From: Thraustochytrium sp. TN22
Taxonomy: Eukaryota > Sar > Bigyra > Thraustochytrida > Thraustochytriidae
Direction of reading: 5' to 3'
Assembly: GCA_013306675.1 (NCBI GenBank)
Contig: JABLUY010000095.1
Coordinates: forward strand, 29,015-93,014
DNA length: 64,000 bases
Shown one piece after another: positions 1 through 38,022 of the stretch. The notes below the pieces were generated by a model. That model was not told where the DNA came from. It saw only the letters and a list, made by a program, of their open reading frames with translations, and searched no databases. Both the position numbers and the translations under genes were made by a program. Numbering within the stretch: position 1 is the first letter of the stretch; each line of letters opens with the position of its first letter.

Positions 1-1125
1 AGATGCTCGCCGTATGCGAGCGCGAAGCGTCCTTTCCCCCGTTTCGGAGTCCTCCTCTCGCGAATAGTCGCGCACGGCCTGGTCGAGAAAGCTCTCCATC
101 GCGCTTCTCACATAAAGAGAGATCACATCCGCGAAGTTGGTGGACCGTGCGCGAGGGCGAGTCAGCTCGTAGCTCAGACGTCTTACCAGCATGACGTCTG
201 CAAAACGCCAGCTCTGCATCTTGAACATGGGGTACTCTGGCTCGATCGCCAAGAGACAGTCTGGCAGACTCAAGGCGAAGGCCTCCCCCTGGCCTGGCAC
301 GAAGGCGAGCTCAAGCTTGCGTCCTGCCTGCTGCGCGCAGAGGACTGCCCACAGGCTCCATGGCCGCTCCAGTGCGAGAATGCGGGCCCAATCGTCCACG
401 ATGAGGGCGACGCGGTGGGACTTTGCGATGAGAGACCGCAGCAACTCCGTCTGCGCCCAGTCCACGGCCGCCCAGTCCGCGTCCCCGGCCTTGCCACCCA
501 TGGCTTCTGTGCAAACACTGCCTTGAAAGAGGCGGCTGCTGGTGCAGGCCAGGTCGAGCCAAACGTAGTCCGCATCGTCGAGCGCCTCAAGTGCGGCAAC
601 GAGGTCCGCAAAGCCGCACTCCCAGGCATGAATGACAAAGATGCCACCGTTCTCGGGCCCGACGGGACTGTCAGTGTCCGCGTCCAGACTGCGCACGTAG
701 ATGCTCTCGCCCGCGGCACGGAGCGCCGGCTCGATGACGAGGCTCGCCACGTCGAAGGTGCTCCACCTCTCGCGCGGCTTGTGCAACGCATCGCGGCCCT
801 CGCGGACTTCGATCGTGTGGCTGCCGCCGCCGAGCGCGCGGACCTCCACCACGCCGCCTTCGCGCGCGTGGACCAGCTCCAAGCTCGCGCCGCGCGGCGC
901 GTGCAGGCCGAGGTCCCGCTTCGCCTCGAGAAGGTGCACGCCAGTCGCCAGCGCCCCGCTCCGCACGCCCTCGGCCAGTTCGCGCAGGAGGGCCAGGCGG
1001 ATCGGCCGCGCGTCCAGCAGCTGGGCTGCGCCACGCCGCGCCGCGCTTTGTCTCCGCGCCGTCAGCGACGTTCGCAGCGAAAGCGACGCCCGCGAGGCGG
1101 CAGTACTCGCCCTTCGTCGCGACAT
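1..1125 (-). CDS. TIR-like (HAW) domain/TPR protein, copy 1, C-terminus outside window
   Basis: This is the N-terminal 375 residues of the same protein as the neighbour at 1881-5159, running off the left edge. The start ATG at 1125 matches the starts of copies 2 and 3. Relative to copy 2 there is no insertion or deletion across the visible part, because the offset stays at 4034 bases, and I saw no interrupting stop. It contains the whole N-terminal module: the HAW motif, the WLD motif and the VDDW/PWSLW block described for copy 2. The role is unknown. Family experience with HAW domains followed by TPRs suggests a signalling or recognition protein, but that is inference. Confidence 0.85.
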   Translation of the reverse strand, partial: MSRRRASTAASRASLSLRTSLTARRQSAARRGAAQLLDARPIRLALLRELAEGVRSGALATGVHLLEAKRDLGLHAPRGASLELVHAREGGVVEVRALGGGSHTIEVREGRDALHKPRERWSTFDVASLVIEPALRAAGESIYVRSLDADTDSPVGPENGGIFVIHAWECGFADLVAALEALDDADYVWLDLACTSSRLFQGSVCTEAMGGKAGDADWAAVDWAQTELLRSLIAKSHRVALIVDDWARILALERPWSLWAVLCAQQAGRKLELAFVPGQGEAFALSLPDCLLAIEPEYPMFKMQSWRFADVMLVRRLSYELTRPRARSTNFADVISLYVRSAMESFLDQAVRDYSREEDSETGERTLRARIRRAS

Positions 1126-1880
1126 CGCGCAAGGCGAGGCGAGGCGACGCCGACGCCGATGCCGACGCCGACGCAGGGAGCGGGAAGCGAGGCGGTGGCA
1201 CGGTGACGCTGCGCCCGAGGTTGCTCCGCGCCCGCGCGCCGCCGCGCCTGCCGGCGCTCCCAATGATGTTCTGAGCTTGCTGCTGTGCTAGGCCTAGACC
1301 ACCAGAGAACGGAGCGCGTGCAGCCAGGCAGTCAGCGCCTGCCTGTCACGCAAGCGCAAAGTAGGTGACCATCAAGATGAAGAGCCCGAGAAAGAGACCC
1401 GGTCCTTGCGCTCAAGATCAAGGCGATAAAAACACGGCCGAGGAAAGGGAGTCGCGTCACGCCGGGCCTTCAAGTTGATCCCGCCTCGCTCGCTTGACTC
1501 ACATCAGTCGTTCCGCTTCGCTTGCAAACCTTGAGTGCGGTGAAGTGCACCAAGTTGTGCGTGCGACCTCTCTCTCCACTGCCAGCCTGAAGACGATCCA
1601 GGAGCGGTGCTTGCTTGCTAGAGGCTGTTGCAAGGGTTTCGTGATTGGTGGTGGGTAACCCTCCCAGCTGGTGGCCGCCCATGCGGTAGAGTCAGATGGT
1701 TGGAAAAAGGTTAGGAAGAGCTTGGCTCGGCTCGCTCGGGCGGGCGCTGCGCATCGCAGCGAGTTGCGTGATCTCTCACTTCAACCTTAGGACGTTTCAG
1801 ACTCAAAGTCAGCTACTACTTGTGCGTGGTGGAGAAAGCGCCAGGTGCGAAGTGCGAGGTGGGGGGCGCTCGCCTCGCGG
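1126..1880. other. Intergenic 5' flank of copy 1, no gene seen
   Basis: GC-rich stretch between copies 1 and 2. It is matched block by block by 5160-5931 and in part by 9211-9605, so it is part of the duplicated unit and must hold the copies' promoters. Short direct repeats of gac-rich sequence lie just upstream of the start codon and vary in number between copies. No open frame here looks coding. Confidence 0.6.
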
Positions 1881-4800
1881 TCAGAGCCGGAGCGGGCCGC
1901 TTCTGACGATGCGCCGATCCAACCAGTTCAGATCTGTAGTATTGGGAGGGTCGGGCTCGTCGTGTTGGCCGGACTCGGCTCTCTTGACCTGATCGGAAAG
2001 CTCCGCATAACGTAGCGCGTTGAGGTCGTCGCCGCGAGCCCGAAAGATGCGACCCGTTTCGTGGAAATCAAAGCTGAGCAAGGATGTCACCTTGCCGTTG
2101 CTGTCTGTGGCACGCAAGGAGATCGCGCGAAAGGCCCAGTGCAAGGCATTGTCGGTGTCGCCCGTGTCCAAGTATATTCTGCGGAGCAAGGAAGCTGCCG
2201 GAGCAGAGGTTGGGTTCATCTCGATCGCACGGAGCGCAATGTCGAGGGCATCTTGTGGCTGCCCACGTCTGGCAATCGCACTGGCTGTTTTGACGGCGAA
2301 AAAGGAGATGTCGTGCTTCCACGCACGTCGCAGCGAGAGCGCGAAGAACTCGTCGGTCGCCTCCACCCATGAATCGAGCGAGGTCCGGCTGAAATAGCGC
2401 CGTGAAAAGTGCAGGAGAGCCGCACGCTTCCTGATGAGAATCCCATCGCCGCCCGCCAAGAGCGCATGCGCACGGGTTTCAAAAGGGAGAGCCGCGCGGA
2501 GGTTCTGGCCGATGGGCTGTTCGCTTCTCCACAGCAGGGCTCCGCGAAGTACGATGATCGCTTGTACTCGTTGAGAGACATGCCCAATCCGGTCGATGAT
2601 GTCGGCCCGGCGCGTGTGGTAGACTATTTCCTCTGGTGAAGACCGCCCTAACGTCTCTGGCTTTGCCTCCTTCGCGAGCTGCTCGAGGACGAACGCGTGG
2701 CGCATGGCATCTTCCGGGGTGCAGTCGGTGAGCAGTCGGTCCGCGCGCTCCAAGAGCGTCTTGGAGGAGGCCCGATCTCCCACACGCGCGTGTTGAGCCG
2801 CCATATCCATGAGTGTGCCTATGAGTGCACGGTCCTTGCGTCCGTAGAGCGCTTCTAGCATGGTGAGCGCCTTCTTGAGCAGGCCAAGGTTGCGAGCCGC
2901 ATGCTTCTTTGCCACTACTGTCTCGCTTGTTCTGTTCGCGTGCCTGCGCGCACGATAGAGGCGCCCAAGGAGCCTGTTCGTGAAAGCCACATCCCGATGC
3001 TCGGGGCCGAGGAGCTCGCGCCGAAGACGCAGCGCCTCGTCCAGAAACGGCTTAGCTAGAGCAGGCCGCGAAGGCTTCTCCTTCTTGCCATTTGCAGCTT
3101 CGTCATCCACTTCGTCTTCCTCGGGCTCAGCGTCGCTCGGGCTCAGGCTCCAGGATCGCAGGAGGTGCTCCGCAGCGGCCTCGAGGGCCTCTGTGTGAGC
3201 ACGCGGGTCGTCATGGCGCTTCGCCTGCTCGAACGCAGCCGCTGCCATGCGCTCTGCCGTGGGCGCGTCCGTGGCGGCTTGGACTGCTTCCAACAGGGTC
3301 TCTACCATTGTCGAATGCGCCGGGCCGGCGATGGCCTCGCAGGCAGCGAGGTAGCGGCCGAGGCTCGCCTCGCCGCGGCCCTGCAAGCATACTTCGCCCC
3401 AGTAAAAGGCGGCAGTAGCAGCCGTGCGGGTTTTCGGGTGAAGGAGCCCGAGCGCTGCGGCGCGCTTCGCACAGAGCTCCTCGAGCAGGAGCGCCTTGTC
3501 CTTGGCCGGCAGCGCGCCCATAAAGCCCACTCTCGACAAGGCAAACGCCGCGCTCGGCGAGGGGTCGTCGTCGCACACGCTCATGGCGTGGCGGTAGTGC
3601 GCGATGGATTCTGCAAAGCGAGGTTCCTTTTGCAGGGTCAGACCATGGCCCAGGAATTTATGTGCGCCACAGACCCAGCGGCTGCTACTGCCGAGGGTCG
3701 CAAGGCCAATCTTGAGCGCCTCTCGCGCGGCCCCCACCACCTCGTCGTAGAGCCCCTCTTTCCCGAGAATACTCATCCTATTGGCGCGGACGGCGGCCGG
3801 CTCATTCGGGTCCGTGTCCGGGAGCTCCGCGTAGATCCCCAGGGCTTCCTCGAAGAGTTCGCACGCCTGCGACTTGCGCGAGCGCGCTTCTTGGAGCGCG
3901 CCGAGCGCGGCGGTGACGCGCGCGATCTCCACGCGCGGCGCGTCGCCGTGGACAGTAAGCAGCGCGTCTCGAACCTCGCGAAGCTCTTGCTCGCTCACTT
4001 GGAGCTTACAGTCGGCTTCGGGTTGAATTCTCCAGGATGCTCGCCGTATGCGAGCGCGAAGCGTCCTTTCCCCCGTTTCGGAGTCCTCCTCTCGCGAATA
4101 GTCGCGCACGGCCTGATCGAGAAAGCTCTCCATCGCGCTTCTCACATAAAGACGAATCACATCCGCGAAGTTGGTGGACCGTGCGCGAGGGCGAGTCCGC
4201 TCGTAGCTCAGACGTCTTACCAGCATGACGTCTGCAAAACGCCAGCTCTGCACCTCGAACATGGGGTACTCTGGCTCGATCGCCAAGAGACAGTCAGGCA
4301 GACTCAAGGCGAAGGCCTCCCCCTGGCCTGGCACGAAGGCGAGCTCAAGCCTGCGTCCTGCCTGCTGCGCGCAGAGGACTGCCCACAGGCTCCATGGCCG
4401 CTCCAGCGCGAGAATGCGGGCCCAATCGTCCACGATGAGGGCGACGCGGTGGGACTTTGCGATGAGAGACCGCAGCAACTCCGTCTGCGCCCAGTCCACG
4501 GCTGCCCAGTCCGCGTCCCCGGCCTTGCCACGCATGGCTTCTGTGCAAACACTGCCTTGAAAGAGGCGGCTGCTGGTGCAGGCCAGGTCGAGCCAAACGT
4601 AGTCCGCATCGTCGAGCGCCTCAAGTGCGGCAACGAGGTCCGCAAAGCCGCACTCCCAGGCATGAATGACAAAGATGCCACCGTTCTCGGGCCCGACGGG
4701 ACTGTCCGTGTCCGCGTCTAGACTGCGCACGTAGATGCTCTCGCCCGCGGCACGGAGCGCCGGCTCGATGACGAGGCTCGCCACGTCGAAGATGCTCCAC

Positions 4801-5159
4801 CTCTCGCGCGGCTTGTGCAACGCATCGCGGCCCTCGCGGACTTCGATCGTGTGGCTGCCGCCGCCGAGCGCGCGGACCTCCACCACGCCGTCTTCGCGCG
4901 CGTGGACCAGCTCCAAGCTCGCGCCGCGCGGCGCGTGCAGGCCGAGGTCCCGCTTCGCCTCGAGAAGGTGCACGCCAGTCGCCAGCGCCCCGGTCCGCAC
5001 GCCCTCGGCCAGTTCGCGCAGGAGGGCCAGGCGGATCGGCCGCGCGTCCAGCAGCTGTGCCGCGCCACGCCGCGCCGCGCTTTGTCTCCGCGCCGTCAGC
5101 GACGTTCGCAGCGAAAGCGACGCCCGCGAGGCGGCAGTACTCGCCCTTCGTCGCGACAT
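1881..5159 (-). CDS. TIR-like (HAW) domain/TPR protein, copy 2 (1092 aa)
   Basis: Large soluble protein with no signal peptide or membrane segment. An N-terminal module spans about residues 30-300. It holds a strand ending FVIHAW (HAW at 166-168), then YVWLD (187-191), VDDW (243-246) and PWSLW (255-259). This order resembles the TIR-like module that precedes TPRs in many algal and oomycete proteins annotated as kinesin light chain-like; the match is from memory, not a search. The rest is helical with kinesin-light-chain-type TPR signatures, such as the stretch with LRRELLGPEHRDVA. The start was chosen because all three copies share this ATG. Nothing shows a catalytic residue set with confidence, so enzymatic (NADase-like) activity is not claimed. 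Family members act as scaffolds or sensors; here the function is unknown. Confidence 0.85.
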   Translation of the reverse strand: MSRRRASTAASRASLSLRTSLTARRQSAARRGAAQLLDARPIRLALLRELAEGVRTGALATGVHLLEAKRDLGLHAPRGASLELVHAREDGVVEVRALGGGSHTIEVREGRDALHKPRERWSIFDVASLVIEPALRAAGESIYVRSLDADTDSPVGPENGGIFVIHAWECGFADLVAALEALDDADYVWLDLACTSSRLFQGSVCTEAMRGKAGDADWAAVDWAQTELLRSLIAKSHRVALIVDDWARILALERPWSLWAVLCAQQAGRRLELAFVPGQGEAFALSLPDCLLAIEPEYPMFEVQSWRFADVMLVRRLSYERTRPRARSTNFADVIRLYVRSAMESFLDQAVRDYSREEDSETGERTLRARIRRASWRIQPEADCKLQVSEQELREVRDALLTVHGDAPRVEIARVTAALGALQEARSRKSQACELFEEALGIYAELPDTDPNEPAAVRANRMSILGKEGLYDEVVGAAREALKIGLATLGSSSRWVCGAHKFLGHGLTLQKEPRFAESIAHYRHAMSVCDDDPSPSAAFALSRVGFMGALPAKDKALLLEELCAKRAAALGLLHPKTRTAATAAFYWGEVCLQGRGEASLGRYLAACEAIAGPAHSTMVETLLEAVQAATDAPTAERMAAAAFEQAKRHDDPRAHTEALEAAAEHLLRSWSLSPSDAEPEEDEVDDEAANGKKEKPSRPALAKPFLDEALRLRRELLGPEHRDVAFTNRLLGRLYRARRHANRTSETVVAKKHAARNLGLLKKALTMLEALYGRKDRALIGTLMDMAAQHARVGDRASSKTLLERADRLLTDCTPEDAMRHAFVLEQLAKEAKPETLGRSSPEEIVYHTRRADIIDRIGHVSQRVQAIIVLRGALLWRSEQPIGQNLRAALPFETRAHALLAGGDGILIRKRAALLHFSRRYFSRTSLDSWVEATDEFFALSLRRAWKHDISFFAVKTASAIARRGQPQDALDIALRAIEMNPTSAPAASLLRRIYLDTGDTDNALHWAFRAISLRATDSNGKVTSLLSFDFHETGRIFRARGDDLNALRYAELSDQVKRAESGQHDEPDPPNTTDLNWLDRRIVRSGPLRL

Positions 5160-5931
5160 CGCGCAAGGCGAGGCGACGCCGCTGCCGACGCCGCTGCCGC
5201 TGCCGACGCAGGGAGCGGGAAGCGAGGCGGTGGCACGGTGACGCTGCGCCCGAGGTTGCTCCGCGCCCGGGCGCCGCCGCGCCTGCCGGCGCCTGCCGGC
5301 GCTCCCAATGATGTTCTGAGCTTGCTGCTGTGCTAGGCCTAGACCACCAGAGAACGGAGCGCGTGCAGCCAGTCAGCGCCTGCCTGTCACGCGAGCCCAA
5401 AGTAGGTGACCATCAAGATGAAGAGCCCGAGAAGAGACCCGGTCCTTGCGCTCAAGATCAAGGCGATAAAAACACGGCCGAGGAAATGGAGTCGCGTCAC
5501 GCCGGGCCTTCAAGTTGACCCCGCATCGCTCGCTTGACTCAGTCGTTCCGCTTCGCTTGCAAACCCTGAGTGCGGTGAAGTGCACCAAGTTGTGCGTGCG
5601 ACGTCTCTCTCCACTGCCAGCCCGAAGACGATCCAGGAGCGGTGCGTGCTTGCTAGAGGCTGTTACAAGGGGTTTGTGATTAGTGGTGGGTAACTCTCCC
5701 AGCTGGTGGCCGCGCATGCGGTAGAGTCAGATGGTTGGAAAAAGGTTAGGAAGAGCTTGGCTCGGCTCGCTCGGGCGGGCGCTGCGCATCGCAGCGAGTT
5801 GCGTGATCTCTCACTTCAGCCTTGGGACGTTTCAGACTCGAAGCGGCCCTTGGCAAAAGTCAGCTACTACTTGTGCGTGGTGGAGAAAGCGCCAGGTGCG
5901 AAGTGCGAGGTGGGGGGCGCTCGCCTCGCGG
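5160..5931. other. Intergenic 5' flank of copy 2, no gene seen
   Basis: Homologous to 1126-1880 and part of the 4 kb repeat unit. It holds a tandem duplication of a short cgcctgccgg unit near 5279-5300 that copy 1 lacks. No separate gene is supported. Confidence 0.6.
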
Positions 5932-8900
5932 TCAGAGCCGGAGCGGGCCGCTTTTGACGATGTGCCGATCCACCCAATGCAGACCTGCAGCCCGGTGTGG
6001 GTCGGGCTCGTCGTGCTCGCGGAGCATGGCTTGCGTGACCTGCTCGGTAAGGTCCGCATAACGTAGCGCATTGAGATTGTCGCCACGAGCCCGAAAGATG
6101 CGACTCGTTTCGGAGAAATGACGGCTGAGCGTGAAAGGGAGCTTGCCATCGCTGCCTATGGCATGCAAGGAGATCGCGCGAAAGGCCCAGTGCAAGGCAT
6201 TGTCGGTGTCGCCCATGTCCAAGTAACAATCGCGGAGGAAGGAAGCTAGCGGAGCAGCTGCAGGGTCAATCTCGATCGCTCGGAGCGCAATCTCGAGGGC
6301 ATCTTGTGGCTGCCCAAGCATGGCAATCGCACCGGCTGCTCTGGCGGCGAAATTGGAGATCTTGACCTTCCACGCACGTCGCAGCGAGAGCGTGAAGAAC
6401 TCCCCGGCCGCCTCCACCCATGGATCGGGCGAGGTCTGTCTGTGACAGCGCGGTGGAACGCGCAGGAGAGCGCCGCGATGCTTGATGAGAAGGCCATCGC
6501 CGCCCGCCAAGAGCGCCTGCGCGCGAGTCTCGAAAGGGAGAGCTGCGCGGAGGTTCTCTTCGACAGGGTGGTCGTTTCTCTGCAGTAGGGCTTCGCGAAG
6601 TACGATGATCGCATTTGCTCGATGACAGACATTCCCAATCCGGTCAATGATGTCGACCCGGCGCGTGTAGTAGACTATTTGCTCTGACGAAGACTGCAAA
6701 AACGTCTCTGGCTTTGCCTCCTTCGCGAGCTGCTCGAGGACGAACGCGTGGCGCACGGCATCCTCCGGTGTGCAGTCGGTGAGCAGTCGGTCCGCGCGCT
6801 CCAAGAGCGCCTTGGAGGAGGCACGGTCTCCCACACGCGCGTGTTGAGCCGCCATATCCATGAGTGTGCCTATGAGTGCACGGTCCTTGCGTCCGTAGAG
6901 TGCTTCAAGCATGGTGAGCGCCTTCTTGAGCAGGCGAAGGTTGCGAGCCGCATGCTTCTTTGCCACTACTGTCGCGCTTATTTTGTTCGCGCGCCTGCGC
7001 GCACGATAGAGGCGCCCAAGGAGCCTGTTCGTCAAGGCCACATCCCGATGTTCGGGACCGAGGAGCTCGCGCCGAAGACGCAGCGCCTCGTCCAGAAACG
7101 GCTTAGCTAGAGCAGGCCGCGAAGGCTTCTCTTTCTTGTCATTTGCAGCCTCGTCGTCCACTTCGTCTTCCTCGGGCTCAGCGTCGCTCGGGCCCAGGCT
7201 CCTGGATAGCAGAATGGACTGCGCAGCGGCCTGAAGGGCCTCTGTGTGAGCACGCGGATCGTCATGGCGCTTTGCCTGCTCCAGCGCAGCGGCTGCCATG
7301 CGCTCTGCCGTGCGCGCGTCCGTGGCGGCTTCGACTGCCTCCAACAGGGTCTCCACCATTGTCGAATGCGCCGGGCCGGCGATGGCCTCGCAGGCAGCGA
7401 GGTAGCGGCCGAGGCTTGCCTCGCCGCGGCCCTGCAGGCATACTTCGCCCCAGTAAAAGGCGGCAGTAGCAGCCGTGCGGGTTTTCGGGTGAAGGAGCCC
7501 GAGCGCCGCGGCGCGCTTCGCACAGAGCTCCTCAAGGAGGAGCGCCTTGTCCTTGGCCGGCAGCGCGCCCGTAAAGCTCACTCTCGACAAGGCAAACGCC
7601 GCGCTCGGCGAGGGGTCGTCGTCGCATACGCTCATGGCGTGGCGGTAGTGCGCGATGGATTCTGCAAAGCGAGGTTCCTTTTGCAGGAACAGACCCTTGC
7701 CCAGGATGTTATGCGCGCTAGAGACCCAGCGGTTGCCATTGCCGAGGGTCGCAAGGTCAATCTCGAGCGCCTCTCGCGCGGCCCCCACCGCCTCGTTGTA
7801 GAGCCTCTCTTGCCCGAAGAGACTCATCCTCTTGAAGCGGACGGCGGCCGGCTCATTCGGGTCCGTGTCCGGGAGCTCTGCGTAGATCCCCAGGGCTTCC
7901 TCGAAGAGTTCGCACGCCTGCGACTTGCGCGAGCGCGATACTTGGAGCGCGCCGAGCGTGGCGGTGACGCGCGCTATCTCCACATGCGGCGCATCGCCGT
8001 GGACAGAGAGCAGCGCGTCTCGAACCTCGCGAAGCTCTTGCTCGCTCACTTGAAGCTTACAGTCGGCTTCGGGTTGAATCCTCCAGGATGCTCGCCGTAT
8101 GCGAGCGCGAAGCGTCCTTTCCCCCGTTTCGGAGTCCTCCTCTCGCGAATAGTCGCGCACGGCCTGGTCGAGAAAGCTCTCCATCGCGCTTCTCACATAA
8201 AGACGAATCACATTCGCGAAGTTGGTGGACCGTGCGCGAGGGCGAGTCAGCTCGTAGCTCAGACGTCTTACCAGCATGACGTCTGCAAAACGCCAGCCCT
8301 GCACCTTGAACATGGGGTAGTCTGGCTCGATCGCCAAGAGACAGTCAGGCAGACTCAAGGCGAAGGCCTCCCCCTGGCCTGGCACGAAGGCGAGCTCAAG
8401 CTTGCGTCCTGCCTGCTGCGCGCAGAGGACTGCCCACAGGCTCCATGGCCGCTCCAGCGCGAGAATGCGGGCCCAATCGTCCACGATGAGGGCGACGCGG
8501 TGGGACTTTGCGATGAGAGACCGCAGCAACTCCGTCTGCGCCCAGTCCACGGCTGCCCAGTCCGCGTCCCCGGCCTTGCCACGCATGGCTTCTGTGCAAA
8601 CACTGCCTTGAAAGAGGCGGCTGCTGGTGCAGACCAGGTCGAGCCAAACGTAGTCCGCATCGTCGAGCGCCTCAAGTGCGGCAACGAGGTCCGCGAAGCC
8701 GCACTCCCAGGCATGAATGACAAAGATGCCACCGTTCTCGGGCCCGACGGGACTGTCCGTGTCCGCGTCCAGACTGCGCACGTAGATGCTCTCGCCCGCG
8801 GCACGAAGCGCCGGCTCGATGACGAGGCTCGCCACGTCGAAGGTGCTCCACCTCTCGCGCGGCTTGCGCAACGCATCGCGGCCCTCGCGGACTTCGATCG

Positions 8901-9210
8901 TGTGGCTGCCGCCGCCGAGCGCGCGGACCTCCACCACGCCGTCTTCGCGCGCGTGGACCAGCTCCAAGCTCGCGCCGCGCGGCGCGTGCAGGCCGAGGTC
9001 CCGCTTCGCCTCGAGAAGGTGCACGCCAGTCGCCAGCGCCCCGCTCCGCACGCCCTCGGCCAGTTCGCGCAGGAGGGCCAGGCGGATCGGCCGCGCGTCC
9101 AGCAGCTGGGCCGCGCCACGCCGCGCCGCGCTTTGTCTCCGCGCCGTCAGCGACGTTCGCAGCGAAAGCGACGCCCGCGAGGCGGCAGTACTCGCCCTTC
9201 GTCGCGACAT
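5932..9210 (-). CDS. TIR-like (HAW) domain/TPR protein, copy 3 (1092 aa)
   Basis: Same length and architecture as copy 2: HAW, WLD and VDDW/PWSLW motifs in the first 260 residues, then TPR-like helices. The open frame extends upstream to a GTG at 9552, but the ATG at 9210 matches the starts of the other copies and the extra 114 codons look like translated flank. By eye the first 420 residues differ from copy 2 at only about 15-20 positions, whereas the last 215 differ at roughly a third. The end of the protein, SGPLRL, is again conserved. Both copies look intact and are probably expressed, which would need transcript data to show. Confidence 0.85.
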   Translation of the reverse strand: MSRRRASTAASRASLSLRTSLTARRQSAARRGAAQLLDARPIRLALLRELAEGVRSGALATGVHLLEAKRDLGLHAPRGASLELVHAREDGVVEVRALGGGSHTIEVREGRDALRKPRERWSTFDVASLVIEPALRAAGESIYVRSLDADTDSPVGPENGGIFVIHAWECGFADLVAALEALDDADYVWLDLVCTSSRLFQGSVCTEAMRGKAGDADWAAVDWAQTELLRSLIAKSHRVALIVDDWARILALERPWSLWAVLCAQQAGRKLELAFVPGQGEAFALSLPDCLLAIEPDYPMFKVQGWRFADVMLVRRLSYELTRPRARSTNFANVIRLYVRSAMESFLDQAVRDYSREEDSETGERTLRARIRRASWRIQPEADCKLQVSEQELREVRDALLSVHGDAPHVEIARVTATLGALQVSRSRKSQACELFEEALGIYAELPDTDPNEPAAVRFKRMSLFGQERLYNEAVGAAREALEIDLATLGNGNRWVSSAHNILGKGLFLQKEPRFAESIAHYRHAMSVCDDDPSPSAAFALSRVSFTGALPAKDKALLLEELCAKRAAALGLLHPKTRTAATAAFYWGEVCLQGRGEASLGRYLAACEAIAGPAHSTMVETLLEAVEAATDARTAERMAAAALEQAKRHDDPRAHTEALQAAAQSILLSRSLGPSDAEPEEDEVDDEAANDKKEKPSRPALAKPFLDEALRLRRELLGPEHRDVALTNRLLGRLYRARRRANKISATVVAKKHAARNLRLLKKALTMLEALYGRKDRALIGTLMDMAAQHARVGDRASSKALLERADRLLTDCTPEDAVRHAFVLEQLAKEAKPETFLQSSSEQIVYYTRRVDIIDRIGNVCHRANAIIVLREALLQRNDHPVEENLRAALPFETRAQALLAGGDGLLIKHRGALLRVPPRCHRQTSPDPWVEAAGEFFTLSLRRAWKVKISNFAARAAGAIAMLGQPQDALEIALRAIEIDPAAAPLASFLRDCYLDMGDTDNALHWAFRAISLHAIGSDGKLPFTLSRHFSETSRIFRARGDNLNALRYADLTEQVTQAMLREHDEPDPHRAAGLHWVDRHIVKSGPLRL

Positions 9211-9720
9211 CGCGCAAGGCGAGGCGACGCCGACGCCGACGCCGACGCAGGGAGCCAGAAGCGAGGCGGTGGCACGGTGACGCTGCGCCCGAGGTTGCTC
9301 CGCGCCCGCGCGCCGCCGCGCCTGCCGGCGCCTGCCGGCGCTCCCAATGATGTTCTGAGCTAGCTGCTGTGCTAGTACTACTAGACCACGGAGAACGCCG
9401 GCGGAGCGCGTGCAGCCAGTCAGCGCCTGGCGCCGCCTGCCTGTCACGCAAACCCAAAGTAGGTGACCACCATGATGAAGAGCCCGAGAAAGAGACCTTG
9501 CGCTCAAGATCAAGGCGATAAAAACACGGCCGAGGAAAGGGAGTCGCGTCACGCCGGGCCTTCAAGTTGACCCCGCCTCGCTCGCTTGACTCAGTCGTTC
9601 CGCTTCGCGTTCCGCTTCGCGCCGCTTCGCTTGCGGACCTTCGTTCGCATGATGAGCCTGGCTTGCTCATCACCATCACGTTCATCGCGTGCGTGAGATT
9701 CTTAACTATGGTCATTATGG
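9211..9720. other. Intergenic region between copy 3 and the diverged paralogue
   Basis: The first 400 bases are homologous to the 5' flanks of copies 1 and 2. After about 9605 the sequence is unique and includes a short gttccgcttcgc direct repeat at 9597-9620. No gene is seen. Confidence 0.55.
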
Positions 9721-12700
9721 TCAAAGGCTGAGCGGGTTGCCCTCGAACCAAGGCACGCGGCGCTGGCAAGCGTCGACGGGGCCATCCGGTGTGCGTAGGA
9801 GGGGCGAGCTGCTCTTGGCGAGCTTGCGAAAATGCAGCGCCTTGGGCCAGTCCTGCAAGGCCTCGTAGACGGCAGCGAGGTCAGAGAAGCAGGACTGCAG
9901 GGCGAGGGACCGGCCTTGCGGGTGGCGGCGCGCGCAAGCGGCCAAGGCACGGTGCGCCCAGCGTGCGCTTGCCTCGAGGTTGCTCTGGGCCTTGAAGGCG
10001 CGGGAGAGGGCGCGCATGGCCAGGTGCGAGGAGGCGTGCACGTCTAGGGTGGCGCGCATGAGGCGGACGGCCTCATCGTCGTTGTGCGTGTCGACGAGGC
10101 GCTCCGCCGCGTGGAAGGCGAGCGTGGACACGGGCTCGAGCCACGCACGGCTGAGCGTGAGGCGAAGGCATGCCTCGACCTCTTCCACGAAGAGGTCCGC
10201 AACCTCGGCTCGGCGCTGCTGTGGAACGAGGATTCGCGTCTCCATGGTGCGCAGCATGCCGTCCCGCTCATGCAGCCAGCTGCCATCGCAGTTCGCCGTG
10301 AGGTCTAGCGCGTAGCGAAGGAGGCGTTCCGCTTCGTCTGGCTGCTGTAGCGTGGACGCGGCCGTGGCGCAGGCGCGCACTGCTACGACATGAGCTGCCA
10401 GTGATCCGTGCACCGCGAGGAGATGCGCCTTTCGCTGGAGCAAGCTGGCCTGCTGGGCTGCGTCTCCCCTGTGCCGAAAGACGAGCTCCTGCTCCTCGAG
10501 CAGAACCACCATGCGAAGGACATCTGTCTGGGCTCCGTCCCTCAGGAGGACCTCCGCGCGGCGCAGGAGTTCCTCGGCGCTGTCAACGTCCGACCGAGTG
10601 GCGAGGTCGATCAGGGTGCCCACGAGGATGATATGCGAGGTCCCGTATACATCCTCGAGCAAGTTGAGGACCGTTTGCAGGTGGTTCTCCTTTTGTTTGG
10701 TGTGGCATACGTGCATCGCAAAGAGCGTGAGCGCGACCTCGCGATGGGCAGGGCCGTAGGTATCTTGAAAGATTGCCAGCGCACACCTGAGGTGATCACC
10801 CATCAACGGGCCGACTCGCAACAGCGTGCTGACTCTTGAAGGAGGCTGGTCGACCTTTTTGCCATTCCCGCGAAGGGTAAAGCAGGAATGGAGGGCGATG
10901 GCGACCTCGCGAAGAACGTAGGCTCTCGCCTCCTGCGCCCGCACGTCCCGAGTCCGTGCGACCGCCTCTTCGACCAGCCGGTCTAGGGTCGGCTCGCCAC
11001 GCGCACAGGGCTCCAAGAGCCAGAGCGCCATGGTGACATGAGCCGAATCTGTGGAGCAACAAGAGAGGCAGGAATCGATGATCTCATCGATGTCCTCCTG
11101 CGGCGCCATCTTATGCTGCAGCGAAGAGATCAGGGCCCCGGCAATACGGGCGGAGGCCGGATGCGCCGACCCGAGTTGACGGCGCGTGACAGACTCGAGG
11201 CCGCGCAGAACGTCGACGGGCATGGCGACGGACGGCTGCAGCGCGCGCGCCACGAAGCGCCTTACTTCCGGCGTGCTCGGGCACGAGCTGAGGATGGCAA
11301 GAGCGCTTGACCAGTGCATCTCCGAGGTCCGTGGCTGCTCGAGGCAGTACGCTCGTGCGGCGACGAGGTGCGCCTGCGCGAGGAGCAAGTCGTCCTCCGT
11401 GTCGTCTCGAGCCGAGGCGAGCGCGTCCTCGGCAGCGCGCATCGCCTCGTCTTGGAGGCCCACCTCGAGGAGGAGGCTGGCGAGTGTGAGGCGCAGCGCG
11501 ATAGAATCTCTTGAAGCAGTGTCGAGCGCCTCAAACATGCGCAGCGCCTCATCGTACAGATCAAAGGCCCGAGAGGCGCGCGCGCGCCTGCGTTCGAGGT
11601 CGGCGCGGACGACACTGGCGCGCGCAAACTGCACCAGGGCGCGCTCGCCTTGGTGTGCAGCAAAAATGCCAATGGCCTCGTCGACTTGAGTCAGTGCCGC
11701 GTCGATGGTCGCGTGCGGCTCGGCGGTTGCCTTGAAGGCCGCACTGTGCAGCAGGGCCTGGGCCAGCTCCCAGGAGCCAACAGGCTCGCCCTGGCCCCGG
11801 TCCGAGTCACTCTCGCTATCCTCGGCCAGACTGCGCGCCGTGGTTACGGCTACGTCAAGGAGGGCTTCGAGACCGGCCCTGACGTAGCGCTCCGCCACGC
11901 GAGAACCCACCTTTTGCATGTGCCCAGTCGCAGCGCCAGGCCACAGCAGGGCGGCACTGAGCTGCGTGACGTGTTCTGCGTCGCCAAGCGTGTTGGCACA
12001 GGGGCGGATGTACGCTGCGGGCCACTTTGGAAGGTCGCCGCCGACGGACCAGGCCGCGTGGCCGTGGCCTCGGAGTGCGTCGGCTGCGCCCGGGCTCAAG
12101 GCCACGTCGAGGCGGCGGCCGGCTCGGTACGCCGCGAGAAGTCCCCACACAGTCCAGGAGCGACCCAGCACGCTGGGGGACGCGAGGTCGTCCACGAGCG
12201 CGACACTGCGCGGGAAGCCTTCGACGAGCTCGTCCATGCCTTCCGTGAGCGCGTCGTCCCTGTCAGCCCACGACACGTCAAGCGCGAGGGCGCAGGCATC
12301 GAGCTCCGGCATGGCGGCCTCGGCCGCGCAGAATAAGTCAATCCATACGAAGCGGCATGCGTGGCCGCCGTTGTCTGCGCCCTGATCCTCGAGAGCCACG
12401 AGCGCGTCGACGAGGTCGGCAAAGCGGTCCTGCCAGGCGTGCAGAACGAGCGCCCCTTCGTATGGCTCGCCGACCTCAGTCTCGGGATCCAGCGTGCGCA
12501 CGTAGACGCAAGTGCCGTTGCCCGAGTCGCGCAGTCTCGGCAGCACCACCTGCGCGGCAACGTCGAAGGTGGACCACGCTTCGCGCGGCTTGGGCGTCGC
12601 GTCGCGTCCGCTGCGGAACTCCACCAGTCTCCCGCCTCCGCGGCTCGCCGCAGCGGCGTCCTGCAGGCGGCCGACCATCACGCCATTGTCTCTTGCCGCC

Positions 12701-12966
12701 ACCAGCTCGAGCGTGGCGCCGCGCGGGACGCCCCCTGCGAGGTCTCGCGCGACCTCGAAGAGCTGCACGCCAGTCGCCAGCTCTTCGCTCTGCAGCTGTC
12801 GCAGGACCTCCCGCAGGTGCTCCACGCTCACGCCGCGCCGCTCGAGCACCTGGTGCCGCCTGCGCTGCGCCTCCGCCTCCGCCTCGGCTGCCGCCGCTTC
12901 TGCCGCCGCCGCGCTGCGCCGCCGCGACGACCGCGGCCGCAGCAGCGACCCTCTCCGGAGCGCCAT
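9721..12966 (-). CDS. Diverged TIR-like (HAW) domain/TPR paralogue (1081 aa)
   Basis: Fourth member of the array, on the same strand. It has a conventional ATG at 12966 followed by an Ala/Arg/Glu-rich leader. The N-terminal module aligns with copies 1-3: VRTLDPETE, then VLHAW and FADLV, FVWIDLFC, VALVDDL and RSWTVWGL. The C-terminal two thirds are helical with TPR-like text such as LYDEALRMFEAL. Overall identity to copies 1-3 is low outside the motifs, so this is an older duplicate. Its presence next to the young array suggests the locus has been generating such genes for a long time. Function is unknown; signalling or recognition is an inference from the domain pair. Confidence 0.8.
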   Translation of the reverse strand: MALRRGSLLRPRSSRRRSAAAAEAAAAEAEAEAQRRRHQVLERRGVSVEHLREVLRQLQSEELATGVQLFEVARDLAGGVPRGATLELVAARDNGVMVGRLQDAAAASRGGGRLVEFRSGRDATPKPREAWSTFDVAAQVVLPRLRDSGNGTCVYVRTLDPETEVGEPYEGALVLHAWQDRFADLVDALVALEDQGADNGGHACRFVWIDLFCAAEAAMPELDACALALDVSWADRDDALTEGMDELVEGFPRSVALVDDLASPSVLGRSWTVWGLLAAYRAGRRLDVALSPGAADALRGHGHAAWSVGGDLPKWPAAYIRPCANTLGDAEHVTQLSAALLWPGAATGHMQKVGSRVAERYVRAGLEALLDVAVTTARSLAEDSESDSDRGQGEPVGSWELAQALLHSAAFKATAEPHATIDAALTQVDEAIGIFAAHQGERALVQFARASVVRADLERRRARASRAFDLYDEALRMFEALDTASRDSIALRLTLASLLLEVGLQDEAMRAAEDALASARDDTEDDLLLAQAHLVAARAYCLEQPRTSEMHWSSALAILSSCPSTPEVRRFVARALQPSVAMPVDVLRGLESVTRRQLGSAHPASARIAGALISSLQHKMAPQEDIDEIIDSCLSCCSTDSAHVTMALWLLEPCARGEPTLDRLVEEAVARTRDVRAQEARAYVLREVAIALHSCFTLRGNGKKVDQPPSRVSTLLRVGPLMGDHLRCALAIFQDTYGPAHREVALTLFAMHVCHTKQKENHLQTVLNLLEDVYGTSHIILVGTLIDLATRSDVDSAEELLRRAEVLLRDGAQTDVLRMVVLLEEQELVFRHRGDAAQQASLLQRKAHLLAVHGSLAAHVVAVRACATAASTLQQPDEAERLLRYALDLTANCDGSWLHERDGMLRTMETRILVPQQRRAEVADLFVEEVEACLRLTLSRAWLEPVSTLAFHAAERLVDTHNDDEAVRLMRATLDVHASSHLAMRALSRAFKAQSNLEASARWAHRALAACARRHPQGRSLALQSCFSDLAAVYEALQDWPKALHFRKLAKSSSPLLRTPDGPVDACQRRVPWFEGNPLSL

Positions 12967-14278
12967 GCCGCCGCGGCCGCCGCGCGGGCCGCGGCCGCCG
13001 CGCGGGCCGCGCCGCGAGGGGCCGCGCGCCGCCGCCGCCGCGCGCGCGCCGGCCCGCGCGCCGCGCGCGAATCGGCTTTGCCGGCCTGCCTCGGCTCAGG
13101 CTGGGCGTGACGGCGCGAGCGCGAGACCAGGCGCCCGTTTCCCTGCACGCGCCGCGCGGGGACTCGTACCAGTGCCGCTGCGGCTCGTACGAGCCCGCGG
13201 CGGTCTCCAACTTGAAGCTCGCCTGCGGGGCGGCGGCGTCCGTGCGCGAGCTCGAGCTCGAGCTCGAGCCCGAGGCGCGTGGCTGGCTCGCTTCTCTTCT
13301 CCGCGAGGCCGCTGGCACGATCTTGAGCGATGAATGCCGCGACGGTAGACGAGAGGCCTTCGAGGAGGAGCGCTTGCTGGAGGCCGAGAGCGAAGCTTCG
13401 AGCCCGTCGCAGTCGTGGGGCCGGGCGGTTTTTCTTGCGGAGCACAGACACGGTCTGGACGAGGGTTTGCGGCATGACACTGCTCGAGCGGGATGTAGTG
13501 GATGAGGGCGCGCCCCATCGCTCGAAGGCTGCCCCACAAGGCCACATGCAGTTCACTCGCAGTAAGTTACCATTATTCGTAAGAGGTTGTTGCGACCGTG
13601 CCTCAGAGTCCTGCCTTTGCTTTGCACGTTTGTGCTCCGTCGCGCCCAACTTCTCTGCGGAGCTCGCCTGCCTGGGCTTGCCCTCCTGCTCGCCGCGCTT
13701 AACTTACTTATCCGCACGTGTGCGCGCCTTCTTTGAAGCAAGAGAGTAGTCGCCTTAGCCTGCGACGCCTTCGCCCCGCCAGCAACACTGCGCTCGCGCG
13801 CCTTCCCCTTGCTCTTCATCGCGCGCGCCTGTTGATCTCGATCTGCCGATCGAGCCCGCCGCCGGTGAGGCACTGCCGTGAGGCATAAGTAAAACCGAAG
13901 CCGATTCGATAGCTCTGCCCCAAGTGGCGTAACTATCGCAAACATTTTCACTTTCCCAAACTGATAAAGTGAACGCGTCGGATTGAACGCCTTGACGCCT
14001 TACTGGTACACATGCAGTTCACTCGCAAGGCACCGGGCCGGCCCACTGCAGTGGCCGCAGCCTGAGGACTTACAGGGTTAGCTCGCGGCGCTCGCCGCGG
14101 AGCCAGACCCACAATCAATGCCACCAAGGCGGCGCGGGAAGGCTCGAGGCGCGCGCCGCTCGGTCGAGGGCGCCGCACCGTCGCGCAGCGGCGACGAAGC
14201 TGCGCAGCTGGATTGTCCGCCGGTGCTCTGGTGCGTGAGAGTGAGCGAGGCGTCAACGACGTCGTCGCTCTCATGAGG
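12967..14278. other. 1.3 kb gene-poor interval between TPR array and esterases
   Basis: Extremely GC-rich in its first half, with runs of cgc/gcc that give long but low-complexity frames on both strands, none convincing. The second half is less GC-rich. An 18-base sequence (acatgcagttcactcgca) occurs at about 13543 and again at about 14009; the first copy is followed by gtaagt, which resembles a 5' splice site. From about 14085 the sequence matches the flank of the next esterase copy. Confidence 0.5.
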
Positions 14279-16630
14279 ATGGCAACCTACTCGTCGCTGC
14301 TGTTGTTGCTCGCGGCACTGCTCGTGCTGCTGCTGATGATGGTGAAGTTGATGGCGGAGACGGAGCTCGCGACTCGTTCGTGGGCGGGCTCGATGCAGGT
14401 TGGCGGGTCGAAACTGCGGTTGAAGCAAGGCATGAGTTTCGCGATGGTCTTCTCGGACGAGATGGTGCTGCAGAGAGCGCCCGCGCGGGCCACCGTGTAC
14501 GGACCACTGGAGACCGCAGAGGACGGCGACGGCGCACGCGTGCTGCTCGTGGCGCATGGCGATGGCAACGAGCCCATGGAGACGGAGGTGGACGTCGAGG
14601 TGTTGCAGGGCGGCGCGGCTTGGCGCGCCGTGCTTCCGGCGCAGCGGCCAGAGGGGGGCGGCACGTATCGCGTCGACCTCGTCACAGCGGCCGGCACGCG
14701 GGCAAGCCTGCACAACGTCACCTTTGGAGATGTGTACATTTGCGGTGGGCAGTCGAACATGGAGTTGCAGCTGGAACACACGTACGAGCTGGATGAGTTG
14801 CGAAGCGATCTGAGGAACGCTAGCGTGGCCGGTGCGGGCGGCGGCTTGGTGCGTATGCTCTCCGTGAGCGCCTGGGACGGCAACGACAGCCAGTACTTGA
14901 CGGACCTCCCCCACTGGATTCTTGCAAAGCGCCCGAATGCGCCGTGGCAAAGTCTGGACAGGGACGGCGACCTGGGCCGCCGCAGCGCGACGTGTGCGTA
15001 CTTTGGCGCCCAGCTGCGCAAGCGCTTGGCGAGCTCTGCGGATCCGGCGGATCGTGAGCTGCCCATTGGGCTCGTGCACAACGCCTTTGGCGGGTCGATG
15101 GTGCAGGCATGGGTGCCCAAGGGCACCCTGGACCACTGCAAGCACTTTCCCTCGACCGGGAAAAACGACGCGGCCAAGTTCAACGGGCTGGTGGCGCCGC
15201 TCGTCAACATGAGCATCGCCGGCCACCTCTGGTACCAGGGCGAAGCCAACGTCAAGCAGGCGCCAGGGTACGCCTGCGGGCTGAGCACCTTGGTAAAAGT
15301 GTGGCGCGAGCTCTGGGCGCGCACGCAGGATACGACGCCGCTCTTTGCCATCTACACGCTCGCCGGTGGCGCGGACGCGGGCACTCCGCTGCGCATGGCC
15401 GCTTTGCGAGCGGCCCAGATGCAGGTGGCTCGAGCGCTTCCCCACACGGCCATTGCGCACGCCCACGACCTCGGCGATCCATGGCCGAACGAGAACGGCA
15501 GCGAGAAGGAGGGCTGCTGTTCCGCAACAGATGGTCCGGGCTTTCGTCCCGCACCGCAGTGTGCCACGGCGCGCGCTCGTCTTCCCTTTTACTGGCACGA
15601 TGCGCTCGACGGCGCCTGGCTCCGTGGAGGGGTGCGAGGTATGGGGCGGATTCACCCACGCAACAAGCGCCGCCTTGCCGAGCGTATGGCTCTCGCCGTC
15701 GTGGATGCCATGTATCCAGGTGCATGGGCTGCTGGTGTGACTCGGTCTCCCGTGGCCGTGCGCTGCCGGCAGCGCGCGGATCTCTCGCTCACCGTTGACC
15801 TCGACCTCGATCCCACCATCCGAGGCGACGCGCTGCTCGTTGAGACCGCGGCGGAGCGGCTGCTTCCGGACGCCAATGTCGAGTACTGTACCGCAGACGC
15901 TGCGAGCTGCAGTTGCCGCTCGTGGCGTCGCGATCCTAGCGGCTGGGTGTGCGAGGACGGCAATCCCAGCGCCGAGCTCGGACTGCTGGACGTCCTCGCG
16001 CCCGAGCGCAGGGACCTCGGCCTGCTGCGACAGGGCGGCGATCGTCCGTCGTGGGAGGTCGCTCCTGCAATTCAAGCCGAGTCCGGAGGCTTTCTCGTGA
16101 AGGGCATCACCGAGCGCGTGCACGCGCTTCGCGTTGCGTGGAGCACGGATTCCTGCTGCCACGGCACGCCCGATCTGAAGAAGGGACTGGTGCCTTGCTT
16201 TCTCAACTGCGGCCTCTACACGGCTGTGCACCGCCTTCCGGTCGCCCCCAGTTTCCTGCTTTGCGAGAAGGTGTAACCAAGCAAAGTCGATCGACTTTTG
16301 CACTGCAGCACTGTCCGCCCGCAGCATCGTGCGGTACATTCACAGCACTGCCGCGATGACCAAGCTGACGAAAGTGGCAATTCGCGATGCCACACATACC
16401 GTGCCGATTTGCCATGAGCAACTTGTGCACTGCGCCGCCGAGCAAAAGAGCGCACACCTCAAGTCAAGTCAACCGACCATCACCACTGCTTTCGCAGATT
16501 GAATTCATAATTCCTGAAGGGCACTTGCGTCAAGTCATGTCTGTTTGTAGCTCACACAGAGGTCTTCATGTCTCTGTCTTTGGCCGCCAGCAAAGCGTCC
16601 GCGTCCGAGTCCGAGTCCTCGCGTATCTTA
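14085..16630 (+). repeat. Esterase duplication, unit 1
   Basis: Direct repeat of the unit at about 16710-19268. Homology starts about 190 bases before the start codon and runs about 350 bases past the stop, so the promoter and 3' region were duplicated with the gene. Boundaries are approximate, set where the alignment by eye fades. Confidence 0.9.
14279..16276 (+). CDS. SIAE: Sialate O-acetylesterase-like SGNH hydrolase, copy 1 (665 aa)
   Basis: SASA/SGNH-family carbohydrate esterase, expected to remove O-acetyl groups from sialic acids or other sugars. A hydrophobic segment at residues 6-25 reads as a signal peptide or anchor, so the enzyme should enter the secretory path. The family motifs are present: FSDEMVLQR (58-66), GDVYICGGQSNME with nucleophile candidate Ser159, the HLWYQGE motif, and RIHPRNKRRLAERMA near residue 460 carrying the likely catalytic His. 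The chain is longer than animal SIAE (about 520 residues), with extra sequence at the C-terminus. The ATG at 14279 was chosen because it matches the start of copy 2. The natural substrate cannot be told from sequence, since many protists with such enzymes are not known to make sialic acid. Confidence 0.88.
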   Translation: MATYSSLLLLLAALLVLLLMMVKLMAETELATRSWAGSMQVGGSKLRLKQGMSFAMVFSDEMVLQRAPARATVYGPLETAEDGDGARVLLVAHGDGNEPMETEVDVEVLQGGAAWRAVLPAQRPEGGGTYRVDLVTAAGTRASLHNVTFGDVYICGGQSNMELQLEHTYELDELRSDLRNASVAGAGGGLVRMLSVSAWDGNDSQYLTDLPHWILAKRPNAPWQSLDRDGDLGRRSATCAYFGAQLRKRLASSADPADRELPIGLVHNAFGGSMVQAWVPKGTLDHCKHFPSTGKNDAAKFNGLVAPLVNMSIAGHLWYQGEANVKQAPGYACGLSTLVKVWRELWARTQDTTPLFAIYTLAGGADAGTPLRMAALRAAQMQVARALPHTAIAHAHDLGDPWPNENGSEKEGCCSATDGPGFRPAPQCATARARLPFYWHDALDGAWLRGGVRGMGRIHPRNKRRLAERMALAVVDAMYPGAWAAGVTRSPVAVRCRQRADLSLTVDLDLDPTIRGDALLVETAAERLLPDANVEYCTADAASCSCRSWRRDPSGWVCEDGNPSAELGLLDVLAPERRDLGLLRQGGDRPSWEVAPAIQAESGGFLVKGITERVHALRVAWSTDSCCHGTPDLKKGLVPCFLNCGLYTAVHRLPVAPSFLLCEKV

Positions 16631-16917
16631 TGGTTGGCCTGATTGTGAGTTCGCACCTGGGAAATGCCTGCCCACCGGCAGAACCCACTATGACTCACTG
16701 AGCTTCGCTCGGGCTCGCTCGCCGCCAGAGCGGATCCAGACCCAGCCCGCTACCAACGCGGCGCTACTAACGCGGCGCGGGAGGGCTCGAGGCGCGCGCC
16801 GCTCGGTCCAGGGCGCCGCACCGTCGCGCAGCGGCGACGAAGCAGCGCAGCTGGATTGCCCGCCGGTGCTCTGGTGCGTGAGTAAGCGAGGCCAACGACC
16901 TCGTCCCTCTCATCAGG
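16277..16917. other. Intergenic region between esterase copies
   Basis: The first 350 bases repeat downstream of copy 2 at 18928-19268, and the last 200 repeat upstream of copy 1. Only about 80 bases in between are unique. A short ccgagt direct repeat lies near 16600-16620. No gene is seen. Confidence 0.6.
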
Positions 16918-33896: not shown

Positions 33897-34362
33897 GCGC
33901 GAGCCACCGCGCGCGTGCGACCCACCCACCGACCGATCGACCGGCCAGCCGCCGTCCGCGCCCCCGCGCCCCGCCGCCCCCCCGCGCGCGCGAGCGAGCG
34001 AGCGAGAGAGGGAGTGAGCCGAGATCCGCGTGTGTTGGGGCTTTGATTTGGTTTCCCGCCGCCACAAGCCACAGGCGGCCGGCCGCAGCTCATCCGGAGC
34101 CAAGCAGGCGCGTGGTGGTTAGGCCGTGAGGCCGCCATGGAACGGGCTTGGCGCCGTCGCCGAGCGTCGCCGACGGCCAAGACCCACGCAACACGAGCTG
34201 CGGGCTCTGGCACTGCAACCCAAGGCTCCTGAGGTGATCTCGTCGATCGAGCAGACAGCCAAGACAGGGAAGTCAAGCAGTACAGTCCTCCCCGGATGGT
34301 TGAGATCTATGGCAGGGGCTGTTCAAGCTAGCCAGAGTAAAGCTTGGCGTGCAGTGCACTCG
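33897..34362. other. Intergenic region upstream of the TPR gene
   Basis: Contains the gagc/gcgag microsatellite near 33990-34010, probably in the promoter or 5' UTR of the TPR gene, and then about 300 bases without a recognisable gene before the stop of the MEKHLA gene. Confidence 0.5.
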
Positions 34363-35877: not shown

Positions 35878-36096
35878 GAGTGGGATGCAGCAGAGTAAAC
35901 AGAGCGGCAGCGAGCGAACATAGACCGTGTGTGTAAAAGGATAGCCTGGGCGGTAGACTGGTCTTTGCGTTGTTACCCCTTGCGATCACGAAACCATTGC
36001 CCCATCAGGCGGCACCGTTCATGGCCGTGTTGAATATAAACTCTAGATGTCACATACCGATCAACAGGTGAATAGCTCATCTGTTTCCGATAACAT

Positions 36097-36169
36097 GCGG
36101 TCTTAGCTCAGGTGGGAGAGCGTGAGACTGAAGATCTCAAGGTCCTGCGTTCGATCCGCGGAGACCGCA
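36097..36169 (+). tRNA. tRNA-Phe (GAA), copy 1
   Basis: 73 nt, CCA not encoded. The acceptor stem GCGGTCT/AGACCGC pairs fully with an A discriminator. The D-stem is GCTC/GAGC, the anticodon stem TGAGA/TCTCA with loop CTGAAGA (anticodon GAA), and the T-arm CTGCG-TTCGATC-CGCGG. Internal A and B boxes fit Pol III. A run of T residues follows at once, which would act as the Pol III terminator. There is no intron. Confidence 0.97.
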
Positions 36170-37327: not shown

Positions 37328-37400
37328 GCGGTCTTAGCTCAGGTGGGAGAGCGTGAGACTGAAGATCTCAAGGTCCTGCGTTCGATCCGCGGAGACCGCA
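37328..37400 (+). tRNA. tRNA-Phe (GAA), copy 2
   Basis: Identical in all 73 positions to the copy at 36097. It is preceded by acatgt and followed by acttctttttt, whose T-run is the likely terminator. About 55 bases of its 5' flank, from gccaccgg on, resemble those of copy 3. Confidence 0.97.
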
Positions 37401-37643
37401 ACTTCTTTTTTTACCACGTTTACTTTTTGCTGCCAGGCGCGGCAGCAGTGGGTGGCGGCCAGGCGCGGCCAGGGACGGCCTGGCGCGGCGCGCGGCGGCT
37501 GGTCTGCGACTCTGCGGATGGTCTGCGGCTTCGAAGCTCACTTGCTTCACACAGGGCGCGGAAAGGAGGGAGGGGTGGTCGAGCAAGCGGTGCCACCGGA
37601 GCCCCTGGCCTTATAGGTGGCGCTGGCCGAGAGACAGACATGT

Positions 37644-37716
37644 GCGGTCTTAGCTCAGGTGGGAGAGCGTGAGACTGAAGATCTCAAGGTCCTGCGTTCG
37701 ATCCGCGGAGACCGCA
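37644..37716 (+). tRNA. tRNA-Phe (GAA), copy 3
   Basis: Identical to the other copies. It is preceded by acatgt like copy 2 and followed by a run of eight T residues. It lies 316 bases after copy 2, with a related 5' flank, which points to duplication of a segment larger than the tRNA. Confidence 0.97.
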
Positions 37717-37949
37717 GCTTTTTTTTCTCCGCGAAGCCACGATAAGCCCATTTTTAGGCCGCATCGCCGTGGACTGGTTCGCTTTTGCGTGGTGCGCAGC
37801 GTGTGGTCATGGCTGCTGCGGGCACGAGCGCTGAGTGAGCGCGTGGCACGGTGGTGGCGCACTGTTTGGAGGCACGCTAGCATGATATGTACCCATGGCT
37901 TTCGGAAGTTTCAACAGCGCCGTCTAGAAGATTGTGGGCGCCGTCCAAT

Positions 37950-38022
37950 GCGGTCTTAGCTCAGGTGGGAGAGCGTGAGACTGAAGATCTCAAGGTCCTG
38001 CGTTCGATCCGCGGAGACCGCA
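37950..38022 (+). tRNA. tRNA-Phe (GAA), copy 4
   Basis: Identical to the other copies; preceded by ccaat and followed, after tcat, by a long T-run. It lies 306 bases after copy 3. Flanks here are less similar than between copies 2 and 3. Confidence 0.97.

Follow-up and report, generated by a model that had tools for sequence, protein, structure and literature searches.

Little is known about the immune receptors of microalgae. In brown algae, NB-ARC-TPR and LRR-ROCO proteins are candidate immune receptors, described as proposed receptor repeat proteins with variation concentrated in the repeats (PMC11378527). In the NLRs of Podospora, positively selected sites of the tetratricopeptide repeats (TPRs) map to the concave side (PMC4986451). 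Here we describe a locus in a 64,000-nucleotide stretch of contig JABLUY010000095.1 of Thraustochytrium sp. TN22 (the window), in which positions 1-12966 comprise four open frames, all on the minus strand. These genes form a tandem array and join a conserved N-terminal module to TPRs, and the two complete young copies have diverged unevenly, with the changes concentrated in the TPR part. We consider, at a probability of roughly 45%, that they are genes of receptor type in which duplication is followed by diversification of the TPR surface.

The array contains three young copies (A, B and C) and an old paralogue (D). The complete copies are B (1881-5159) and C (5932-9210); each encodes 1092 amino acids in an uninterrupted frame, and the two are equal in length, differ by no insertion or deletion and share 87% amino-acid identity. 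Copy A (1-1125) is cut by the start of the window and comprises the first 375 codons, that is the N-terminal module and a linker, so that its TPR part lies outside the data. Gene D (9721-12966) encodes 1081 amino acids with the same architecture as the young copies and aligns with C over nearly the full length at 29% identity (E 2e-68). When the window was compared with itself, positions 2-5556 matched 4036-9608 with 93.6% identity over 5,604 columns and positions 2-1521 matched 8087-9608 with 95.0% over 1,546 columns. Calculated from the frame coordinates, the units measure 4,034 bp (A-B) and 4,051 bp (B-C) from start to start, and the spacer between C and B (5160-5931) resembles that between A and B (1126-1880). 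Chance is untenable as an explanation of this array. To judge by the length of the units and the likeness of the spacers, the copies were probably made by unequal crossing-over. A preliminary description of this DNA had reported four same-strand genes, three of them young and arranged in units of about 4.04 kb and one an old paralogue; frames and self-comparison agree with it.

Judged by sequence profiles and by a structural model, the C-terminal half of the proteins consists of TPRs and belongs to the TPR superfamily. Copies B and C match the Pfam family TPR_12 above the curated cut-off, whereas the match of D falls below it. With an AlphaFold model of full-length C, which is of low confidence (mean predicted local distance difference test score (pLDDT) 48.2, predicted TM-score (pTM) 0.31), Foldseek placed TPR superhelices (consensus TPR, LGN and BKLC) among the best 50 rows, the best E being 2.2e-6. 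PDB sequence matches were limited to the TPR part. The conserved N-terminal module occupies residues 1-300. It carries the blocks HAW, WLD, VDDW and PWSLW in A, B and C, with HAW, WID, VDDL and SWTVW as their equivalents in D. Residues invariant from A to D include H166, W168, D174, W189, D191, C194, D244, D245, R254, W256 and W259 (numbering of C). The core of the module in C (residues 160-300; 8311-8733, minus strand) holds all four blocks and is near-identical in B. Even between C and D identity reaches 41-53% in residues 35-300, as against 18-35% in blocks of residues 401-1092. The preliminary description had proposed just this combination of an N-terminal module with TPR-type repeats, and it is borne out by the blocks in A-C, their variants in D and the TPR_12 matches in B and C. 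Its comparison with NLRs fared differently. Pfam searches up to E=1 revealed no NTPase, whether NB-ARC, NACHT or another, between module and TPRs; the matches returned were of TPR type or weak and attributable to chance. A receptor of the NLR/STAND type is ruled out by the lack of a central NB-ARC or NACHT match.

In a codon-by-codon comparison of B and C, the differences were sorted into amino-acid-changing (N) and silent (S). Under neutrality about 74% should be amino-acid-changing; the spacer spectrum, fourfold sites and equal rates led to similar outcomes, and P values are quoted for the spacer spectrum. Residues 1-400 showed N 10 and S 7, which is not significantly below neutral (P 0.13). 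Two blocks in the TPR part are divergent. The first (residues 461-520; 7651-7830 in C, minus strand) had N 19 and S 2, a value above neutral at P 0.074. The second (residues 841-1092; 5935-6690 in C and 1884-2639 in B, both minus strand) ends at the stop codon and had N 104.7 and S 27.3, above neutral at P 0.089. In the intervening residues 521-840, with N 26 and S 26, amino-acid changes were below neutral (P 0.0002). Both divergent blocks together gave P 0.030 against neutrality and, by Fisher's test, 1.7e-5 against the rest of the gene, with boundaries that were picked after looking. In a scan for N-rich stretches, 20 of 500 shuffles were as extreme as the observed arrangement. The pattern suggests a diversifying recognition surface, and an excess over neutrality is unproven: we rejected proven positive selection once the choice of the stretch was allowed for, since 117 of 500 neutral simulations reached the best stretch.

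The divergence of the last block has sharp borders, one at about codon 834 and one at the stop codon. Within codons 841-1092, 132 of 756 sites differ (17.5%), compared with 12 of 364 (3.3%) in the 3' flanking DNA of the two copies (P 5e-13), and the first 100 alignment columns past the stop codon hold no substitution at all. Silent sites are raised inside these borders as well, and recombination, through either homogenised flanks or an older block swapped in, therefore explains part of the peak. These borders bring in a mosaic made by ectopic gene conversion, in which one copy took over its C-terminal block from an older paralogue, possibly one that lies further along the array and outside the window, and in which no recognition function is involved. 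Conversion alone leaves unexplained the separate block 461-520 with its merely two silent changes, and likewise the preference for one of the TPR helices that is described below. We think a mosaic without recognition function unlikely, if far from negligible. Ectopic gene conversion may also serve as the mechanism by which a receptor surface is diversified.

The same block bears on the leading alternative, in which an ordinary protein is under relaxed constraint. According to this alternative the genes encode a cytoplasmic TPR adaptor of the kinesin-light-chain or nephrocystin-3 type that was tandemly duplicated; spare copies lose the constraint on their C-terminal part and gene conversion keeps the rest alike. 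Lost constraint would fit the equal divergence of codon positions in the last block, where 89 of 504 sites differ at positions 1 and 2 and 43 of 252 at position 3, and it would fit a neutral expectation that is not exceeded after correction. The named relatives of the repeats, which are TPR_12, weakly NPHP3-type TPR, kinesin light chain and BKLC, are those of such adaptors, and a further tandem duplicate pair adjoins the array. Yet both B and C keep an open frame of 1092 codons with no indel between them, and the intervening TPRs 521-840 are still constrained. Relaxation also predicts equal change in both TPR helices, which is not what the modest statistics of the helix comparison favour. We regard the adaptor as a serious possibility that falls somewhat short of probable.

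In known TPR structures, helix A lines the concave ligand groove. Changes between B and C were assigned to the helices of five helix pairs in the two divergent blocks, hand-picked for clear register; five helices predicted between residues 842 and 942, whose register is unclear, were excluded. With helices taken from the model, 30 of 76 residues were changed in helix A as against 16 of 82 in helix B (P 0.008). The first four pairs gave 24 of 59 and 8 of 63 (P 0.0008). Changes in helix A recur with a 100-degree periodicity, which 50 of 5000 random placements reach, and helix A of the five repeats, chosen after looking, had N 43.8 and S 4.2 (P 0.002). A register based on the repeat consensus led to 25 of 70 changed residues in helix A and 20 of 100 in helix B (P 0.033). 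In the old pair C-D, which is near saturation, there was no helix bias (54 of 69 against 69 of 91). With its modest statistics and its single gene pair, the preference for helix A suggests, by analogy, the same direction as the pattern of the Podospora NLRs.

Several points weigh against a diversifying receptor surface. There is one complete young pair, B-C. Neither divergent block is significant singly (P 0.074 and 0.089), the TPR part as a whole has odds of 0.91 relative to neutral, and the best N-rich stretch is matched by the 117 of 500 neutral simulations mentioned above. Constraint on the N-terminal module in the young copies is also non-significant when taken alone (N 10, S 7, P 0.13), and over 375 codons the ratio of amino-acid-changing to silent divergence (dN/dS) reaches 0.69 for B-C; it is 0.34 for A-B and 0.38 for A-C. 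Silent divergence (dS) itself is uneven, 0.16 in the C-terminal block versus 0.01-0.04 in residues 1-400. As to the helices, A and B show no significant difference in N:S ratio (Fisher 0.25). At the canonical groove positions of the TPR, which we take to be 2, 5, 9, 12, 13, 33 and 34, 14 of 35 residues were changed compared with 31 of 135 elsewhere, a weak enrichment (P 0.053), and the other positions of helix A were changed as often (11 of 25), so that the groove is not singled out. The whole-protein model from which the helices were taken is poor (mean pLDDT 48.2), and two of the five helix pairs have a pLDDT below 50. The neighbouring genes tell in the same direction. A second fresh tandem duplication lies at 14120-19227 on the plus strand and consists of two sialate-O-acetylesterase-like genes with 94% DNA identity, the SASA family (PF03629) having been tested on the second of them. 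This pair has a dN/dS of 0.43 overall, and its first 100 codons are the most divergent.

In spite of these points we favour receptor-type genes with a diversifying TPR surface. The array would then be a small set of intracellular receptor-type genes in a eukaryote. The conserved N-terminal module would provide a shared signalling or effector output, and the TPR superhelix would be the changing input, binding a protein or peptide partner. New copies would be produced by unequal crossing-over. Recent duplication or gene conversion would keep the N-terminal modules and the spacers alike, and the C-terminal TPRs would diverge meanwhile, mainly on helix A. That a partner is bound, that the module signals and that microbes or non-self are recognised is our inference. 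The sensor role put forward by the preliminary description is still hypothetical, and the concentration of the divergence in the TPR part now gives it circumstantial support. A bolder extension is that the genes represent a class of intracellular receptors that are neither NLRs nor TIR proteins, with an unclassified N-terminal module placed directly on TPRs without an NTPase and with a groove that diversifies between tandem copies, the likeness of modules and spacers being maintained. They would then be an independently evolved recognition repertoire of a single-celled eukaryote, which we consider rather improbable. If the pattern holds in more copies and strains, this would be a candidate receptor family missed by searches for TIR, NB-ARC and LRR, and the array would indicate which residues to test.

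The nature of the N-terminal module deserves separate discussion, since the preliminary description had likened it to TIR domains. On this view the genes would encode a TIR-TPR receptor, the module being a divergent TIR that acts as an NADase or via homotypic contacts. By eye the order of the blocks (H.W, W.D, VDD, W..W) is TIR-like. A second AlphaFold model, of residues 30-370 of C, is also of low confidence (mean pLDDT 53.8, pTM 0.42). In this model and in that of the full-length protein, strands and helices alternate within the module and one strand leads into HAW; the modelled fold is probably alpha/beta. The predicted order of strands and helices fits a TIR-like alpha/beta fold and equally a flavodoxin-like one, and is thus non-diagnostic. 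Comparison of a predicted structure with TIR folds, which had been proposed as a check, has therefore yielded a compatible order of elements from a model too poor to settle the fold. With the module model Foldseek found no match at E <= 0.001 and no TIR among the best 50 of 558 rows.

Profile comparisons do not support a TIR. Six module fragments were searched against Pfam, and neither TIR nor HET was reported up to E=10, a nominal limit as the HMMER filters discard most matches above about 0.1. The sole row reported was DUF2064 (E 0.065), in D. For a controlled comparison with hhalign, we used 15 TIR_2 domains from 59 bacterial genomes searched, of which 23 had a match. Against this set the module reached a probability of 0.5% with one alignment (A2) and 0.1% with another (A3), the level of ten column-shuffled versions of A2 (0.1-0.4%). 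Three plant TIRs scored 98.7% against the bacterial set, and eight of eight random TIR pairs scored 98.8-99.8% against the other 13 TIRs. Since all these two-row controls, which come from one Pfam family and in some cases share a member, were recognised, two rows suffice for ordinary TIRs, and the module from the window was not recognised. A very remote relative of TIR may escape the test, since the controls are ordinary TIRs.

The active site points in the same direction. In TIR domains the catalytic Glu follows a conserved Trp between strands C and D, is needed for NADase activity and is present in over 70% of TIRs (PMC7075850). A Trp followed by Glu after 2-3 residues occurs somewhere in the domain in 13 of the 15 bacterial TIRs. 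The corresponding position is Ala in A-C (W-S-L-W-A) and Gly in D (W-T-V-W-G) in an alignment made by eye, which agrees with an hhalign alignment that is itself non-significant. The H.W and W.D blocks resemble motifs of the HET domain; the Pfam model of HET (PF06985) gave no match up to E=10. HET homologues have been reported in stramenopiles, haptophytes and green algae, and HET is described as related to TIR (PMC4986451). This published relation favours a TIR-TPR receptor to some degree and may be a lead for a remote link of the module. Pfam, the controlled hhalign comparison and Foldseek, as far as a low-confidence model allows, lend the TIR assignment no support, and we consider a TIR-TPR receptor very improbable. 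A few motif blocks are insufficient ground for filing the module as a TIR, and the earlier lead is corrected in this respect.

No credible match to the module was found in Pfam, NCBIfam or PDB. Searches of NCBIfam and PADLOC (both with C and D), of PHROGs and of PDB by sequence and by profile returned weak or TPR-type rows only, and the module alone gave chance-level matches in PDB (E 0.98 and above). Searches for relatives covered viral, phage, plasmid and prokaryote collections and thus have little bearing on the spread of the family. Viral contigs searched with C and with module profiles A1 and A2 yielded no confirmed relative; in genomic contigs searched with A2, none of 23 stretches with the pattern was confirmed. 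The pattern RAWCLWE occurred in 11 viral and 71 genomic stretches, none of which matched the profiles from the window at E <= 1. The phage and plasmid collections gave no match, and neither did two genomes searched with A3, a result that carries no weight. Among the titles listed by a literature search none dealt with a HAW/WLD/VDDW module, which is not proof of absence.

Elsewhere in the window, TPR_12-type repeats recur in a separate gene (31194-34118, minus strand) without the HAW module. An ORC4-type gene is located at 38394-42107 on the minus strand, and short overlapping direct repeats with offsets of 48, 72 and 96 bp and about 82% identity lie at 40185-40390 within the long frame that matches ORC4. 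At 46410-49790 on the plus strand there is a gene for a protein with WD40 and Rab-GAP-TBC domains, reminiscent of TBC1D31. The ORC4-type gene and the WD40-TBC gene suggest that the DNA is eukaryotic. Several dispersed copies of a repeat family of about 85-103 bp, with 95-99% identity, were found at 36095-38035.

How, then, do these genes compare with known systems? With kinesin light chain, BKLC and nephrocystin-3 type TPR proteins they share the type of repeat; the difference is that PDB sequence matches cover the TPR part only and leave the N-terminal module at chance level. With TIR domains the likeness consists in a compatible order of predicted strands and helices, whereas profile similarity is absent and the module has no Glu at the catalytic position. 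The TPR NLRs of Podospora anserina have their variable TPR sites on concave helices (PMC4986451), and changes in the pair B-C favour helix A. Unlike those NLRs, the genes described here contain no NACHT or NB-ARC, and their repeats are degenerate rather than nearly identical. Brown algal receptors are reportedly the subject of Zambounis 2012 and Teng 2023, as cited in PMC11378527. The resemblance to the NB-ARC-TPR and LRR-ROCO proteins of these algae lies in repeats that carry the variation in proposed receptors; no NB-ARC was matched in the genes of the array. The two systems also differ in how variation arises. Exon shuffling operates in the brown algal genes, whereas the frames described here are uninterrupted, so that exon shuffling does not account for their variation, which lies between tandem copies.

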